A DNA stretch of 64,000 nt from Daucus carota subsp. sativus (lineage: Eukaryota; Streptophyta; Magnoliopsida; Apiales; Apiaceae): NCBI RefSeq assembly GCF_001625215.2, contig NC_030387.2:33689606-33753605 (forward strand). The letters run 5' to 3'. Below are positions 1,287 to 53,264 of this stretch, in pieces. The notes beneath the pieces were generated by a model. It was not told where the DNA came from and did not search any database. It worked only from the letters and a program-made list of their open reading frames with translations. The position numbers and the translations under genes are program-made. Numbering within the stretch: position 1 is the stretch's first letter; each line of letters opens with the position of its first letter.

Positions 1287-3381
1287 CTATAGAGATAGAT
1301 CAGCCAAGTCAAAAGTCCTGGAAACGGCTTTGCACCATGACTCCACCTTTTTCTTTCTCTTTTCCTCCTCTAAAATTGGATTGAAAGTGGTAGCAATCTT
1401 CATCCTCTCACCCGAAGAGAATATCTCCTCTTCTTTCCAGACCCCGACAGCTAAACCAGCCGCGTATGCAGCTCCGAGAGCCGTTGTTTCAATATCTGCT
1501 GGTCTTACCACTGGGTTACCCAATATATCTGCCTGCAATTTATAACATAAGAAAAGTTTGATTATCCACTCGCTCATTAGAGTCGAGGGTCATTAGTAAC
1601 TAATTAATACTGGCAGGAATTGATAAAAATGCAACATTGCCACAGAAGGTAACATAGTTTGTCCCCAAACAAAAACCAAGTGCACCACTTTATTATCTGC
1701 CACTTTAATTTGAGTTAATAAATATTCTAGATAAAAGCATCAAAATTTAACTGTTGAAGAAACAGTTTCTGATCTTTGACAATAATTATCTTTTCAAGTC
1801 AGTGAGAGTTTAATTGTTTCGAGAATCCACTACCAAAGATCACATTCGGCATCCACTTTTGATCTACCTTTATGAAGAATGGCTTGAAGTTTACTACATG
1901 TTCGACACAAGAAAGTAACTATGTAATTCATTTTTTTTGGTAATTAAAACGAGTAACTTAGCAAAAGAAAACAGCTTGATAATAGACAAGTGAAACTACT
2001 TGTAGCAAATCAAAAAGATACGGAAGCAAGAAGCACAAATATACTACTGAGTGTGAGAGTGTACCTGAATTTGCATTAGAAGGTTATTAACGGTAGCACC
2101 ACCATCCACCCTAAGCAGAAACTTTTCTTTACTTTCCACTTCACTTGCATCCTTATGCATCGAGTCCAACACATCTTTTACCTGGAAACACATGCTTTCA
2201 AGTACAGCCCTAGCAATGTGAGCCTTATTTGTGAACCTTGTGATTCCAATACAAACTCCACGAGCATCATCACGCCACCAAGGAGCGAACAGTCCGTTGA
2301 ATGCTGGCACAAAATAAACCCCGCCAGTGGAATCAACCTCTGATGCCAATTTTTCAATTTCACTTGCTCTACCAATTAGGCCAAGACCATCTCTGAGCCA
2401 CTGAACTGCGGCTCCAGCAATAGCAATTGATCCCTCCAGAGCATAATTTGTTGGAGCATTAGGACCAAGTTTAAACGCCACAGTGCTTAGTAGCCCATGA
2501 GTTGAATTAATCATCTGATCACCAGTGTTTAGAAGAATGAAAGCACCAGTCCCATAAGTGCTTTTCGCTTCTCCCTTCCTACAAGCTTGGCCAACCATAG
2601 CTGCATGCTGATCACCAAGACAACCAGCAATTGGTATTCCCGTAATTGGCCATCCCTCTGTAACCTTCCCAATAATCTCTGAATTACTAACAATTTTCGG
2701 GAGTATTCCGCTAGGAATTCCCAATTCTTTCAACGTCGTCTTGTCCCAATCAAGAGTCTTAAGATTCATTAACATCGTTCTCGATGCATTTGAAACATCA
2801 GTGACATGCTGCCCCCCATCAATCCCTCCAGTCAAATTCCAAATTAACCAGCTGTCAATAGTTCCAAATAAAGCATCCCCACTTTCTACAGCTTTCTTAA
2901 CCTTTTCAACATTTTCAAACAACCATAACACCTTCAAAGCACTAAAATAGGTACTTATTGGTAAACCACACGTCTCCACAAAATGAGTTCTCCCCCCTTC
3001 TAATTCCTTCTCTAATCTCCTGTAAAGTATTTAGATCAAATTAAGTCTTCTACAATTAACCAACTATAATATACTATATTACAAACACCCAATTCATATT
3101 CATTGTAACCACATTCATAAATGAAACAACATCCATGTTAACAGTACCTAATAACACCCAACCCAACAAGATTTTTCCACACAATTAAGGCAAAATATTA
3201 ACAAGTAGCCCAGATCTTGATCACACGAAATAAAATGACTGATGAATCAAACATAGACTAACACAACATAAATGCATATTACACACAAACACAGAGAGAG
3301 AGAGGGATAGAGAGAGAGAGAGAGAGAGAGAGCGAGAGGGAGAGGGAGAGGGGGAGGGAGGGAGAGAGAGGGAGGGAGGGG

Positions 3382-3423
<42 letters not shown>

Positions 3424-3863
3424 CTGCAAATAGAACTAGTGCGAACATCCATCCAAACAATAGCATTGTGAAGAGGGGCACCAGTTGACTTGCTCCAAAT
3501 AACCGTAGTCTCTCTCTGATTAGTAATCCCAATAGCTTTCAATCCTTTCTCAACACTATGACCATCAGCAGCAGCCTTCTCAATAGCCTTCGTCATACAA
3601 ATCCTCGCACTCTCCAGTATCTCAACTGGATCATGTTCCACCCATCTAACCAATCAAAATCAAAACATTCACATAAACCACCACACACAAACCCATAAAC
3701 CAACACAAATAACTAAAAAACAAACTCACCCTGCTTCTGGGTAAAACTGAGTGAACTCAACCTGGTGTGATCCAATGGCCTTAGCGTCATGATCATAGAT
3801 AATGAACCTCGTACTCGTCGTCCCTTGATCAAGCGAACCAATAAAAACATCAGATTTCGCCAT
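1287..3863 (-). CDS. GLPK: Glycerol kinase (FGGY carbohydrate kinase)
   Basis: Phosphorylates glycerol to sn-glycerol-3-phosphate with ATP, the entry step of cytosolic glycerol catabolism. The Arabidopsis orthologue is GLI1/NHO1, also linked to non-host resistance. Four exons on the minus strand: 3863-3730, 3645-3424, 3019-2065 and 1532-1287. They join in frame to 518 aa, close to the Arabidopsis length. The N-terminal phosphate-binding motif is [11 protein letters not shown] (about residues 9-19). The substrate region has [10 protein letters not shown] and [17 protein letters not shown], and the C-terminal ATPase half has STYGTGAF and [16 protein letters not shown]. The ATG at 3863 gives the expected short N-terminus. 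Oddity: intron 2 begins inside a long CT tract directly at the exon 2 donor. Identity is very sure; junctions are read by eye but keep frame and family sequence. Confidence 0.95.
3293..3421. repeat. GA/CT microsatellite at the donor of glycerol kinase intron 2
   Basis: About 130 bp of nearly uninterrupted AG/GA dinucleotides with a few GGG interruptions (CT-rich in the sense of the minus-strand gene). It begins two or three bases inside intron 2, immediately after the exon 2 donor at 3423-3422. Confidence 0.95.
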
Positions 3864-4422: not shown

Positions 4423-4725
4423 CTCCCTCCGTCCCTATTTATCTGTCCACTTTAGAAGTAAAAATTTGTCCCTATTTATCTGTCCATTTATACTTTCAAA
4501 ACTAATTTAATGATAATTTTTCAAATATATCTCCATAATTTCAATTTTCAAGGCTTGACTTATTTAAAACTTGATTGAATTCATGTTTTCAAAACATAAA
4601 GTAGGGGTATTCCACCATTTTCAAGATATTAATTAGAGGCATTTAATGAAAAAGTTTATACAATCAATTATTCCTTGATATGTGTTTTTTTTCCAGAATG
4701 GACAGATAAAAAGGGACGGAGGGAG
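4423..4725. mobile_element. Stowaway-like MITE (Tc1/mariner type)
   Basis: Terminal inverted repeats CTCCCTCCGTCCC and GGGACGGAGGGAG are flanked by TA dinucleotides (4421-4422 and 4726-4727), the classic Stowaway target duplication. The ends also share the subterminal TTTATCTGTCCA motif in inverted orientation. No coding capacity; 303 bp. Confidence 0.85.
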
Positions 4726-10376: not shown

Positions 10377-10677
10377 CTCCCTCCGTCCCAAAAAGAGTGA
10401 ACTGGTTTGACTTTCACGGAGATTAAGAAAAATGTAGTAAGTTTAGTTGAAAAGTAGGTAAAGTGGTGGGACCTACCAATATTTAATAATAGATTTGAGA
10501 TAGTGGAGGAAGATAGTGGGTGTAACAGTGTTTATATTATTATAGAATGAAGATAGTGGAAGAAAGTAGTGGGTGTAATAGTGAAAAGTAGTGTTCAAAA
10601 ATAGTAAGTATGGTAGGTTCATTCTTTTTGGGACGTCCCAAAAAAGAATAAGGGTCACATAAAATGGGACGGAGGGA
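10377..10677. mobile_element. Stowaway-like MITE upstream of the H+-PPase gene
   Basis: Starts CTCCCTCCGTCCCAAAAAG after a TA and ends with the inverted GGGACGGAGGGA. The interior blocks (ATAGATTTGAGATAGTGGAGG, AGAATGAAGATAGTGGAAG) recur in the element at 25030-25416, so both belong to one family. Its right end is about 170 bp upstream of the H+-PPase TATA box. Confidence 0.8.
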
Positions 10678-25029: not shown

Positions 25030-25416
25030 CTCCCTCCGTCCCAGCCGTTTGTATACAAATGGTTGGGACACGGAGATCAAGAAATTATGTAATAAATGAG
25101 TAAAGTTAGATAAAAAGAGCCATTTGTATACAAATGGTTGGGACACGGAGATCAATAAATTATGTAATAAATGAGTAAAGTTAGATAAAAAGTGGGTATA
25201 GTGGTGAGACCCATTTATATTTTATAATAGATTTGAGATAGTGGAGGAAAGTAGTGGGTGTAATAGTGTTTATATTATTATAGAATGAAGATAGTGGAAG
25301 AAAGTAGTTGGTGTAATGATGTTTTATATTATAAAAGTTTACTACTTTTGGAATGTATACAATTGATGGGACGTCCCAAAAAGGAAACTGTATACAATTC
25401 ACCGGGACGGAGAGAG
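25030..25416. mobile_element. Stowaway-like MITE with internal tandem duplication
   Basis: Begins CTCCCTCCGTCCC after TA and ends GGGACGGAGAGAG before TA. The interior matches the element at 10377-10677. A 75-bp unit starting near 25048 is repeated from 25123. The second copy forms the perfect 18-bp palindrome CCATTTGTATACAAATGG at 25120-25137. Confidence 0.85.
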
Positions 25417-49219: not shown

Positions 49220-49316
49220 AAACTGGACTCGTAAGATATTTTATAAAAAAATTTTGAATTCGTTAAGGATCGTATTTTGATGAGATTGACTAATGATTGG
49301 TAATGTTTTAATATAA
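49220..49316. repeat. 97-bp direct repeat, left copy
   Basis: Identical by reading to 52029-52125. Starts AAACTGGACTCGTAAG and ends GTTTTAATATAA, immediately followed by the CTAG terminus of the Helitron-like segment. Confidence 0.95.
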
Positions 49317-50516
49317 CTAGTATATCTGGCCCGTGCTTCGCACACGGGAAATGTTCGTTTGTTTTCATATTTTTATAATTGATGATTATATATACACATC
49401 CAATAATCATATGTTCACTGCCCTTTTTTTCTAACTACATGATTCCACAATTTTACGGAACATACATACCATAATTGTGTTATTAGATCGGCATCTGTAT
49501 CTTTTTAGAAATTCATCGAAAAAGCTCTCTCTCATAAAAACATGTGATTATTGGATATTCTAATACTGATTATGATAATACTAAAAAATTCATAAATATG
49601 CATACTGTTTTCTTTACATTTTTTCATGAAAAACGAAGTAAGTATTTTAATAATAATTAAATTAATTTTAATGGGAGCTCGCGTGGGCATAATAGCTGTG
49701 GCATTATTAAATAACAAAAGAAGTGTTCTATAATAAAATTTTAATTTTTTGGAACTTTTTTGTAATAAAAGTCATTTGTTTTAGTATTATAAAAGTGCAA
49801 TCAAGTTACAATAAAAGCAACTTAATGCGTGGGAAGCAATAAAAATAAAACAACTGCATATATAACTAAACAGAAATCATGTAACTTATGCAAACCGATA
49901 ATTTCTTTTGAAAATCATAAAATAACTAAATTTCACTAATATTAATTTGATAATTAAAAAAACATAAGCACTGTATATAAGATAAACAACTCTTTACATT
50001 TATTTAAATGAAATTTGCAGCATAATGTTTCCGCAGCCTGCTCCCAACCTCTTTGCATATGTAGAGTACCAAAATCGTGTACCAACATGCATTGTAACTG
50101 CCTCAGAACCCACCAGTATTGCTTTCTTTTGCTCAAATATAGCCACGACAAATTTCAGCACTTGATATCCATTTCAGAACTTTTTACCAATCATATTAAT
50201 CCCAAGTTCATGGCTATTAAAGTTACCACACAAATATTCTACAAAAGCCAATAGTGTGTTAGCCAGGAACCAAGAAACACAAATAATAATGGATAAACTG
50301 ACAAAACAATCCGCAAACTTTAAAAAGACACTAATCTACAATTTTAATTCTATATCTTAATGACTCACTTGATCAAATATATTATAACTTATATAAGGAT
50401 GCAAAAAGGATTGGAATTATAGAGGGACCAGTAATAAGTAATGCATGGAATGATTTTCATATCTAATTTTAGGGACAAAGAGTAGATACAATGAATCTGT
50501 CTCTGGCTTAGGTATA

Positions 50517-50640
50517 AATGGTCAAGCACTGGTTTTACGACAGTCTCTGGTCCTGGAAATGGATCAGCTGCTGTCCCCAGACCCAAAACAGGCATGCTTT
50601 TCGCATTCCTGGAACTCGGAGTAACTTGTGGAATGCTCAT
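50517..50640 (-). pseudogene. Aldo-keto reductase (AKR4-like) first-exon fragment
   Basis: Minus-strand translation SIPQVTPSSRNAKSMPVLGL then GTAADPFPGPETVVKPVL matches the N-terminus of plant AKR4 enzymes (chalcone reductase, codeinone reductase group). After about 40 residues the similarity stops. The next conserved GYRHFDTA block and the catalytic residues are missing. A captured or decayed fragment, not a working gene. Confidence 0.65.
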
Positions 50641-50737
50641 TTTTCAGTTGGTGTTACCTTCCATCCAGGCGGATTCTCTTTTGGAAGATCTTTAAGAGTA
50701 ACACCTTGGAGTTGAGAGACAAAATGAAATTCATCAC

Positions 50738-50975
50738 ATTACAATTATGACCAAATTATGATTATTAGGCTTAAAATCATAATACGATGATATGAAAGTA
50801 TGAAAAGTGAAAGAATGAAAATCATAACTTTTCTGGAATCCTATTACAATTATGACCAAATTATGACCATAGATCGTATTACTAATACGATGATATGAAA
50901 GTATGAAAAGTGAAAGAATGAAAATCATAACTTTTCTGGAATCCCATTACAATTATGACCAAATTATGATTATTC
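50738..50975. repeat. Tandem repeat, 103-105-bp unit, about 2.3 copies
   Basis: ATTACAATTATGACCAAATT starts at 50738, 50843 and 50946. The intervening units share ACGATGATATGAAAGTATG and CATAACTTTTCTGGAATCC. Confidence 0.9.
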
Positions 50976-51193
50976 ATATTCTGGTTGAGATTACTATCTC
51001 AAGATTAAATGTGTATCATGTTCAGAAGATAGTGAAATCTGGTTAGATATTGCAGGTCTCTTGATAGCTACAAAATCAAAGGAAGTATTCGAGTTGGATT
51101 AGACATCAGCGTCTAATCGCAGAACCTAACATCACACTAATATGCAAAGAATGTGAAAGCGAGGAAATGTACAGAGCTATTAATATTTGTACC

Positions 51194-51482
51194 TGAACCT
51201 TGTGTGGAGTGGGAAAGTTGTTGGCAAATCTTATCAGCACGAGTTGGAGTTTCAAAACGCGAAACTGGCACTGACCTGTTAGATGCTGCAAGTAACAAAA
51301 TTTAAGCTAAATGAGGTGATGTTGGGGGTGTAAAAACACGATGAAAACAGAATCGGAGAGGACTTGGAATTCAGACCAAGACACTGGTAAAAACTATCTT
51401 GAATAGGATTTGAAGTAGTAGCTGAAGCTGAGATCAGAATGAGAACACATGAAAGTGTGACAGATAGTACAGAAGCCAGTGC
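51194..51482 (-). pseudogene. Berberine-bridge-enzyme-like (FAD oxidase) N-terminal fragment
   Basis: Minus-strand translation from 51482 gives a hydrophobic leader (VLSVTLSCVLILISASA), then DSFYQCLGLNSKSSPI and CFYTPNITSF. This is the order seen in plant BBE-like proteins: signal peptide, FLQCL block, YTPNNSS block. A shifted frame then has RFETPT, resembling the LRF.TP.TPKP block. There is no ATG in the expected place and the FAD-binding domain is missing, so it is a fragment. Confidence 0.55.
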
Positions 51483-52028
51483 TCACTTGTGTCTCTGTCT
51501 AGTGCTTCAAAGGAATGAAAATGTGTTCTCTATTTATTAACACTGTGATGTCTTGTGAATGGCATAATGTGATATAAAGCAGACGTGATGTTTATTTTGA
51601 TAATTTTAGTAGATGATCAAATTCTAATTTTTTTAAAAAAGAGTAAATTTAGTGTTAGTTTATATACTAAATCTTATTATCAGAATATATATTTTCTAAA
51701 ATTTTTAAATGTAGTGTTAGTTTATATTTTTAAGGCTAATGTCAGAATTTATATTCAAAATTTTGTTTTTATTAGAATTCGTACTATTTTTTGTTTAATA
51801 TTTTTAATTTTTAAAGTTATATATTAAGATTTTTTTAAAAAAACAAATACAATAAAAAATAAAGTAATTTTTTGTAATTTATAGCTATTATAAATAATAA
51901 ATAAATCTTTTGTCAGTTTAACACTTTGCTCCATGTGTACCAATAATAGTGGGTGTGCCTGAGCATTATTACAAAAAAGGAATTAGTACTAATCTTAAAG
52001 GTGTTGAGGACAATGTTAGTACCAATAA

Positions 52029-52125
52029 AAACTGGACTCGTAAGATATTTTATAAAAAAATTTTGAATTCGTTAAGGATCGTATTTTGATGAGATTGACT
52101 AATGATTGGTAATGTTTTAATATAA
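52029..52125. repeat. 97-bp direct repeat, right copy
   Basis: Identical to 49220-49316 across all 97 bases. On its right the sequence continues TATGTCATT without interruption, so it looks like the undisturbed host side of the insertion. Confidence 0.95.
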
Positions 52126-53264
52126 TATGTCATTATTATTCAGTATTATTCCGAGTTATACATTATAATTCAGTAGTGAGAGGATTTTAATGGATCACGA
52201 GGAACGTGTTACAAAGACCGTGTGTAGCAATTTTGGGTCGGTTTGTGTTAATTTAGAAAAATTGATTTCTTAATTAAAATAAAGAAATGAAGTAGAAGTA
52301 AGAAGTAAATTAATGATTATAAGTGCTCGTTTAGTTGGATGTGAGAGGTAACTTCCCAGAGATATTTACACTCCCCTTCCATAAAAACTACGAAGTTTAA
52401 TAAACATGTTTGGTTGAAAAAATTACATGGGAAGTCTAATAAACATATTTGGTTGATAAAAGTGAATTCTATACTAATTATGTTCATTAGTTTGTTTAAC
52501 TAAAATTTAAATTTATTATTAATAAATTTTGAATAACATTTTTATCCTTTAATTTATTATAAAAATAATTTGATCAATATTATTATATATTATTATTCCT
52601 TATTATAACATTGACCTAAGATGTATTTTATACAAATATTTACATATTAATTTATTAAACAAATTAAGTATTCAATTTATTCCTGACTTTTGATATTTAT
52701 AAGGTTTTGACAAAATAATATTATTAATATGTTGTCATTTTCTCTTTATTATTTTATTAGATTAAATGAACATATTCTATAATTTTGTTAATGAAGAAAT
52801 ACAATTTAACAATTATATTTTGAGTTACATAAAATAAAAATAATAATAACAATCCTATAATTTTTTGAAATTTACTAATTATTTCTACTATTATATGTGT
52901 CAATATATTATTTTAGAACAACTTATGTTTTTTCCCGGTATATTAAATAAAAATTAAATTTACGTATGTCCCACAATAATATTTTAAGTTGCACATAATG
53001 AATAAATAAATAAATAATAAATATAATTTTTAAATTTAATTAATTATTATTAATATTATATGTATTAGTATATTATTTTAGAGTGGATTATGTAGTTTTA
53101 TGTTATATTACAAAAAAATTAAATTAGGTGCGTGATGCAAGAAGGAAGTCTGAGTAATCGAGGGGGGCGTGGGTAAATAACTTCCTACGTTCTACTACTA
53201 ATGTAATTTCCTGGTGACTTCAACTTCCTGTATTTTAGGTCAACCAAACAACTGCATATATTAG
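52126..53264. other. AT-rich intergenic spacer
   Basis: Strongly AT-rich, no gene recognised. The stretch from about 53130 to 53230 is GC-richer and contains TTCCTACGTTC and CTTCCTG motifs that may be repeat ends. Confidence 0.35.

Follow-up and report, generated by a model that had tools for sequence, protein, structure and literature searches.

Helitrons are described as making no target duplications (PMC4778049; PMC5876387; PMC6544945; PMC4683698; PMC10095026; PMC1657028; PMC5148889; all sources cited here by PMC number were available in part). This absence is a listed feature of the group and is taken to reflect insertion of a single strand (PMC5876387). HUH transposases work on a single strand, with the two ends joined in separate steps (PMC4778049; PMC5876387; also general knowledge). 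In Helraiser, the reconstructed bat Helitron, activity is lost without the 5' end while the 3' end is dispensable, and its one-ended products, inserted between A and T, have one exact and one abnormal end, the 5' end being constant and the 3' end replaced (PMC4778049, in the passages available). The canonical plant Helitron begins with 5'-TC, carries a hairpin ahead of a terminal CTRR-3' and inserts between A and T (A-T site below). A constant 3' end, variable 5' truncation, a target duplication of variable length and sometimes filler DNA are the marks of 5'-truncated LINE insertions. Could a Helitron insertion also duplicate its target? Among the titles, abstract openings and passages covered, with most subscription journals outside the scope, no report linking duplications to 5'-truncated Helitrons was found, which is not proof of novelty.

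Here, we describe a Helitron-derived segment in a window of 64,000 nucleotides (the whole stretch of carrot DNA analysed, C7:33689606-33753605), together with its relatives in the genome (441,086,747 bases, 11 contigs). The features of the segment are as follows, in window positions.

49220..49316, plus strand: left copy of a 97-bp direct repeat, its end being the exact Helitron 3' junction
49317..49320, minus strand: Helitron 3' terminus CTAG, preceded by A on the plus strand, an arrangement as in most family members
49330..49348, minus strand: 3' hairpin CCCGTGT-GCGAA-GCACGGG, from folding
49317..50076, minus strand: Helitron 3' part, the whole of which is common to the relative L052 (C1:1.10 Mb)
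50077..51931, no strand: mosaic interior, with 84-96% matches at several unrelated places
51932..52028, no strand: final stretch ahead of the right copy, without the family 5' end
52029..52125, plus strand: right copy of the 97-bp direct repeat, passing without a break into the host flank
52125..52126, no strand: A-T target pair, intact, in the right copy

The two repeat copies are identical at 97 of 97 positions without gaps and enclose 2712 bp (49317-52028). The left copy ends in AATATAA, immediately followed by CTAG at 49317, and the right copy ends in AATATAA followed by TATGTC, continuing into host DNA through the intact A-T pair. Beside the CTAG on the minus strand, the hairpin has a 7-bp stem of -7 kcal/mol (DNA parameters; z -3.18, with 1 of 200 shuffles as good). 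These results bear out the sequence-only reading, which had described two identical 97-bp copies, the left one stopping at a minus-strand Helitron 3' terminus and the right one running on into the host.

About the first 230 bp of the 3' part resemble many family members, and L052 differs from the window over this part by one extra insertion. At positions 1458-1896, L052 carries a hAT-like insertion of ~420 bp with imperfect inverted ends, bordered on both sides by an 8-bp repeat (GTGGCATT); the insertion is missing from the window copy. Matched pieces of the mosaic interior lie at 50224-50374, 50522-50663, 50733-51112, 51111-51302, 51233-51908 and 51794-51931, and since the repeat arms are identical while these pieces match at 84-96%, the pieces probably predate the insertion. 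Within the interior, a 103-bp unit is repeated 2.3 times at 50733-50969. The 97 bp before the right copy (51932-52028) had no match in the genome search or among the compared loci. The window copy has the CTRR terminus with a hairpin shortly before it that defines a Helitron 3' end, while a search for the family 5'-end motif found no 5'-TC terminus such as its complete relatives have, and it carries a 97-bp target duplication where 17 complete relatives carry none. Judged by the homology of its 3' part, it is a 5'-truncated member of a Helitron family and not a complete Helitron.

Among the best 40 of 65 candidates scored, the full 97 bp occurs at two places in the genome, which are the two window copies. 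The possibility that it is a dispersed repeat, named in the sequence-only reading as a finding that would speak against a target duplication, was rejected on this count, although diverged partial relatives exist. One lies at C2:38346592 (72% over 112 bp) and another (~71%) adjoins a family member on C5; both begin at the first base of the window repeat and run across the A-T site, and both are weak empty-site paralogues. As a control for chance, none of 2000 random 30-mers of the window recurs exactly 1-9 kb downstream. An old diverged repeat of ~125 bp is present at 52029-52150 of the window, at 1501-1624 of L021 and at 2606-2735 of L042.

The same reading had suggested a search of the genome for other copies of this 3' end. 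With the left copy plus the 3' end as query, 40 places were listed, namely the window element, the second 97-bp copy and 38 others, which gives at least 39 places with this 3' end (best 40 of 65 candidates scored). In most members read, CTAG starts the element directly after A; the terminus is changed in L052, L045 and L078, and is unclear in L059. The complete relatives that were sought are present as well. In the same orientation they end in ...TTCAGGAATTAAGAATATATAGA followed by T, or in a subfamily variant, so that the element strand begins 5'-TCTATAT, and the main 5' end has 20 matches in the genome, one of them a partial piece in L055. The termini of complete members, as read, are ordinary Helitron ends in A-T sites, and the family shows common termini with unrelated flanks, as expected of Helitrons. 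The 3' hairpin, the CTAG, the A-T site and the 5'-TCTATAT of the complete copies all resemble those of canonical plant Helitrons.

The window copy is not alone. In seven members, which belong to several 3'-end sub-lineages and lie in different host DNA, the host sequence adjoining the 3' end occurs as a long direct repeat, of 37, 97, 177, 183, 214, 297 and ~302 bp.

Window (C7): 97 bp, 100% identity
L052 (C1:1.10 Mb): 37 bp, one arm 5 nt shorter, zero mismatches
L058 (C1:26.5 Mb): 183 bp, 100%
L057 (C5:28.16 Mb): 297 bp, 2 mismatches
L055 (C3:27.56 Mb): ~302 bp, interrupted, arms 98.8-99.1% over two main pieces
L097 (C6:40.11 Mb): 177 bp, 97.8%
L098 (C8:13.59 Mb): 214 bp, 1 mismatch and 1 gap

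In all seven, the repeat ends at the A preceding the 3' terminus and a T follows the far copy, so the A-T pair is kept there, while the other limit of the repeat is an unspecific point 37-302 bp from the 3' junction. The shortest repeat, that of L052, likewise ends at the junction and scores 48, where the best of 30 shuffles scores 28. The ~302 bp of L055 replaces an earlier delimitation of 173 bp, because its right copy is interrupted by a Stowaway-like element (~300 bp, ends CTCCCTCCGTCCC/GGGACGGAGGGAG, at TA) with a 54-bp tandem duplication adjoining; lying inside one arm, the Stowaway-like element is younger than the duplication. At the junctions of L097 and L098, the two examined closely, microhomology is absent, with one odd base in L098.

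Five of the seven were found by a genome search with concatenated flanks, as a second copy on the same strand beyond the element. In these flank searches the best 40 candidates were scored and were filled by high-copy flanks, so that short or diverged duplications could be missed. Since the seven were found through a recurring flank, they are not a random sample, and the informative part is how they divide by the presence of a 5' end. An eighth candidate, L071, was not counted, because its second flank copy, 12.8 kb away, belongs to a local repeat of which a further copy lies 34 kb away in the opposite direction.

When three 5'-end versions were aligned to the whole elements, none of the seven yielded the family 5' end. 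The best alignments reached 36/82, 32/112 and 30/64, the first of these lying within AT-rich sequence of the L055 repeat itself. For four of them (L097, L098, L057 and L055) 5' truncation is seen directly against relatives; for the other three (the window copy, L052 and L058), the evidence is the motif search. L097 tracks L101 at 98.6% up to position 1692 of ~6750 and then passes directly into the repeat, and L098 does the same after tracking L103 at 97.7% up to position 4513 of ~6510. L057 tracks L100 at 99.8% over most of its length, one insertion apart. Its last 450 bp before the repeat are missing from L100 and were considered as filler, which was rejected, as they match the interior of three complete members at 99, 98 and 95%. 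The 99% match is to the copy at C5:4769487-4775815 and ends ~0.97 kb short of its 5' end. L057 is therefore treated as a plain truncation, its interior being presumably contiguous with the complete members at that point.

L055 is different in that it tracks L054 at 98% until 80-100 bp short of the 5' end, where ~1 kb of foreign DNA follows, and only then the repeat. The foreign DNA is 99% identical to C3:52308137-52309502 and consists of two pieces (255 and 748 bp), with ~360 bp of the C3 sequence absent; the direction of copying between the two places is something we infer. The divergence of the filler from its C3 match is about the same as that between the duplication arms.

By contrast, the repeat is present in none of the 17 copies in which a 5' end was recognised and the flanks could be read on either side (7 of 7 vs. 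0 of 17, Fisher p = 2.9e-6). Twelve of the 17 come from a set of 15 pairs, in which all 15 best scores fall below the 95th percentile of 100 shuffles. For the other five, most flank scores do not exceed the best of 20 shuffles, the exceptions being L075 and L072. The L075 scores (25 and 26, vs. 24 and 25 for shuffles) fall within the element or stop before the junction, and that of L072 (30 vs. 29) is an overlap of the analysed piece with its own flank. About 50 bp of the right flank were readable in L062.

The 39 members are made up of the seven with the repeat, these 17, six whose flank is hidden, unread or doubtful, and nine unplaced. The six have a 5' end and stand outside the 17: L064, L065 and L038 adjoin another Helitron, L060 and L077 have an unread right flank, and the ends of L045 are 25 kb apart, with no repeat. 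The nine in neither group are L059, L035, L071, L073, L074, L076, L078, L095 and L096. All five members without a listed 5' end that were read proved to have one, as did L060, so that absence from the list says little about the nine.

How could the duplication arise? We consider it likely that the segment is a Helitron copy whose 3' end is normal and which lacks a normal 5' end, its target having been duplicated by the inserting event itself. The RepHel nuclease would join CTAG-3' to the T of a nicked A-T site. With the 5' part of the element lost or never arriving, the A-3'OH of the target would stay free and could be extended for 40-300 nt along the intact host strand, with strand displacement starting at the single nick, or with fill-in that stops at a second nick in the opposite strand. 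The host would then link, by end joining, the extended end to the broken 5' end of the element, and in one case (L055) ~1 kb of foreign DNA would have been joined between them. The order of these steps, the polymerase involved and whether a second nick sets the length are what we infer from the final structures.

Because extension of the A-3'OH copies the DNA adjoining the 3' end, duplication of that flank only is predicted, which matches the observation. Extension also leads one to expect an unspecific stop point, and joining to a broken 5' end should yield a truncated element, in some cases with filler; both were found. By eye, the outer edge of the duplication starts at A-T in three of the seven (plus strand as oriented), a number too small to support a second transposase nick. 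The 97-bp duplication shares its outer edge with the old diverged repeat of ~125 bp, a coincidence for which extension does not account. The sequence-only reading had offered two versions of the event, the joining by repair of a 5'-truncated copy and the replicative copying of the flank. Its general idea gains support from the six further members, which share this anatomy but differ in host DNA and repeat length, and from the 17 copies with a 5' end and no repeat; the present data do not separate the two versions.

The requirement of Helraiser for its 5' end (PMC4778049, in part) is the reverse of the constant 3' end seen here and counts against this best explanation, as does the absence of microhomology at the junctions of L097 and L098. 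The Helraiser requirement and the constant 3' end could be reconciled if the 5' part were lost only after the element had been mobilised.

Insertion with duplication has to be weighed against its main rival, later repair, which we consider unlikely. A complete Helitron would have inserted normally and later broken, either internally or at its 5' end, at a time when the homologue or sister still lacked the element; the broken end facing the 5' side would have been cut back past the element, have copied the empty partner through the A-T site into the flank, and have been joined to the Helitron remnant. The final structure would be identical, including the intact A-T pair in the far copy. Plant Helitron excisions with repair scars have been described (PMC4683698; PMC10095026; both in part), and L055 is truncated just 80-100 bp from the 5' end, so near that a nick at that end could have initiated a break. 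However, later repair requires an empty partner every time, and it predicts mirror images, in which a 5' end would stand beside a duplicated flank. For four of five 5' ends without a close 3' partner, no second flank copy was found, in a weak test that would miss duplications shorter than ~85 bp; the fifth was uninformative, and one flank filled most of the best 40 places.

Repair of a staggered break by the host without any transposase, giving a tandem duplication with a Helitron piece as filler, appears quite improbable. In mammalian cells, fill-in at breaks with 3' overhangs is an established source of tandem duplications (PMC8355091, in part), which likewise duplicate the flank of the break, and filler does exist in L055. 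In those duplications, however, the end is not set by a transposon terminus, whereas in the carrot copies one side is the exact Helitron 3' terminus at an A-T site in seven of seven, as in complete copies, and these exact junctions already disfavour such repair. Although L071, the uncounted candidate, sits in a local repeat, an assembly error or chance insertion into pre-existing local repeats is very improbable, since the repeats end at the Helitron junction in seven of seven, the source is probably a doubled-haploid, long-read assembly (PMC10581907, in part), and the right copy of L055 has since gained its own Stowaway-like insertion at TA.

Returning to duplication during insertion, the seven carrot copies differ from canonical plant Helitrons, as described in the sources available, in lacking the 5' end and having target duplications of 37-302 bp. 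They resemble the one-ended products of Helraiser in the A-T site and in having one exact and one abnormal end, but with the roles of the ends exchanged, the 3' end being constant and the 5' end lost, with a duplication in addition. The likeness to 5'-truncated LINE insertions is one of outcome, and no membership is claimed for the carrot copies; their case involves no reverse transcription or RNA, and a Helitron DNA end stands at the A-T site. The filler-DNA model of Helitron gene capture (PMC6544945, in part) also has foreign DNA added in repair, but in L055 the filler follows the truncated 5' side and precedes the duplication, and it differs from its match about as much as the arms differ from each other. 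Since this foreign DNA stands at the 5' limit and looks about as old as the duplication, capture of foreign DNA may occur during Helitron insertion.

A wider proposal, which we put forward tentatively as a possibility, is that Helitron integration is ordered, with the 3' end first, and that the free target 3'OH would prime synthesis whenever the 5' end is missing. This would be the DNA-transposon counterpart of target-primed, 5'-truncating insertion; it would leave long target duplications, could take other templates and might provide a general route to foreign pieces on the 5' side. A duplication tied to the loss of one end sets the two joining steps apart and reveals the end that can be joined by itself. 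In addition, annotators can use the duplication to locate where a truncated Helitron stops on its 5' side, a limit that cannot be seen otherwise, and the class can be tested in any Helitron-bearing genome.

Some further observations concern the family and the window. Six peptides from family elements were scanned, of which two match DEAD-box helicase and four match nothing. In the complete member L101, pieces of a DEAD-box helicase gene lie at 2677-3540 (3' end at left; Helicase_C 8e-25), a sign of gene capture. At L082, L083, L035, L044 and L096, neighbouring members abut directly, 5' end to 3' end. The flank of the L091 5' end recurs many times, in a local array at C3:32.50-32.65 Mb and at C1:2067-31687 near the contig start. 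Elsewhere in the window, 10422-10579 and 25159-25317 form a 160-bp repeat pair that is 87.5% identical, possibly a small transposon.
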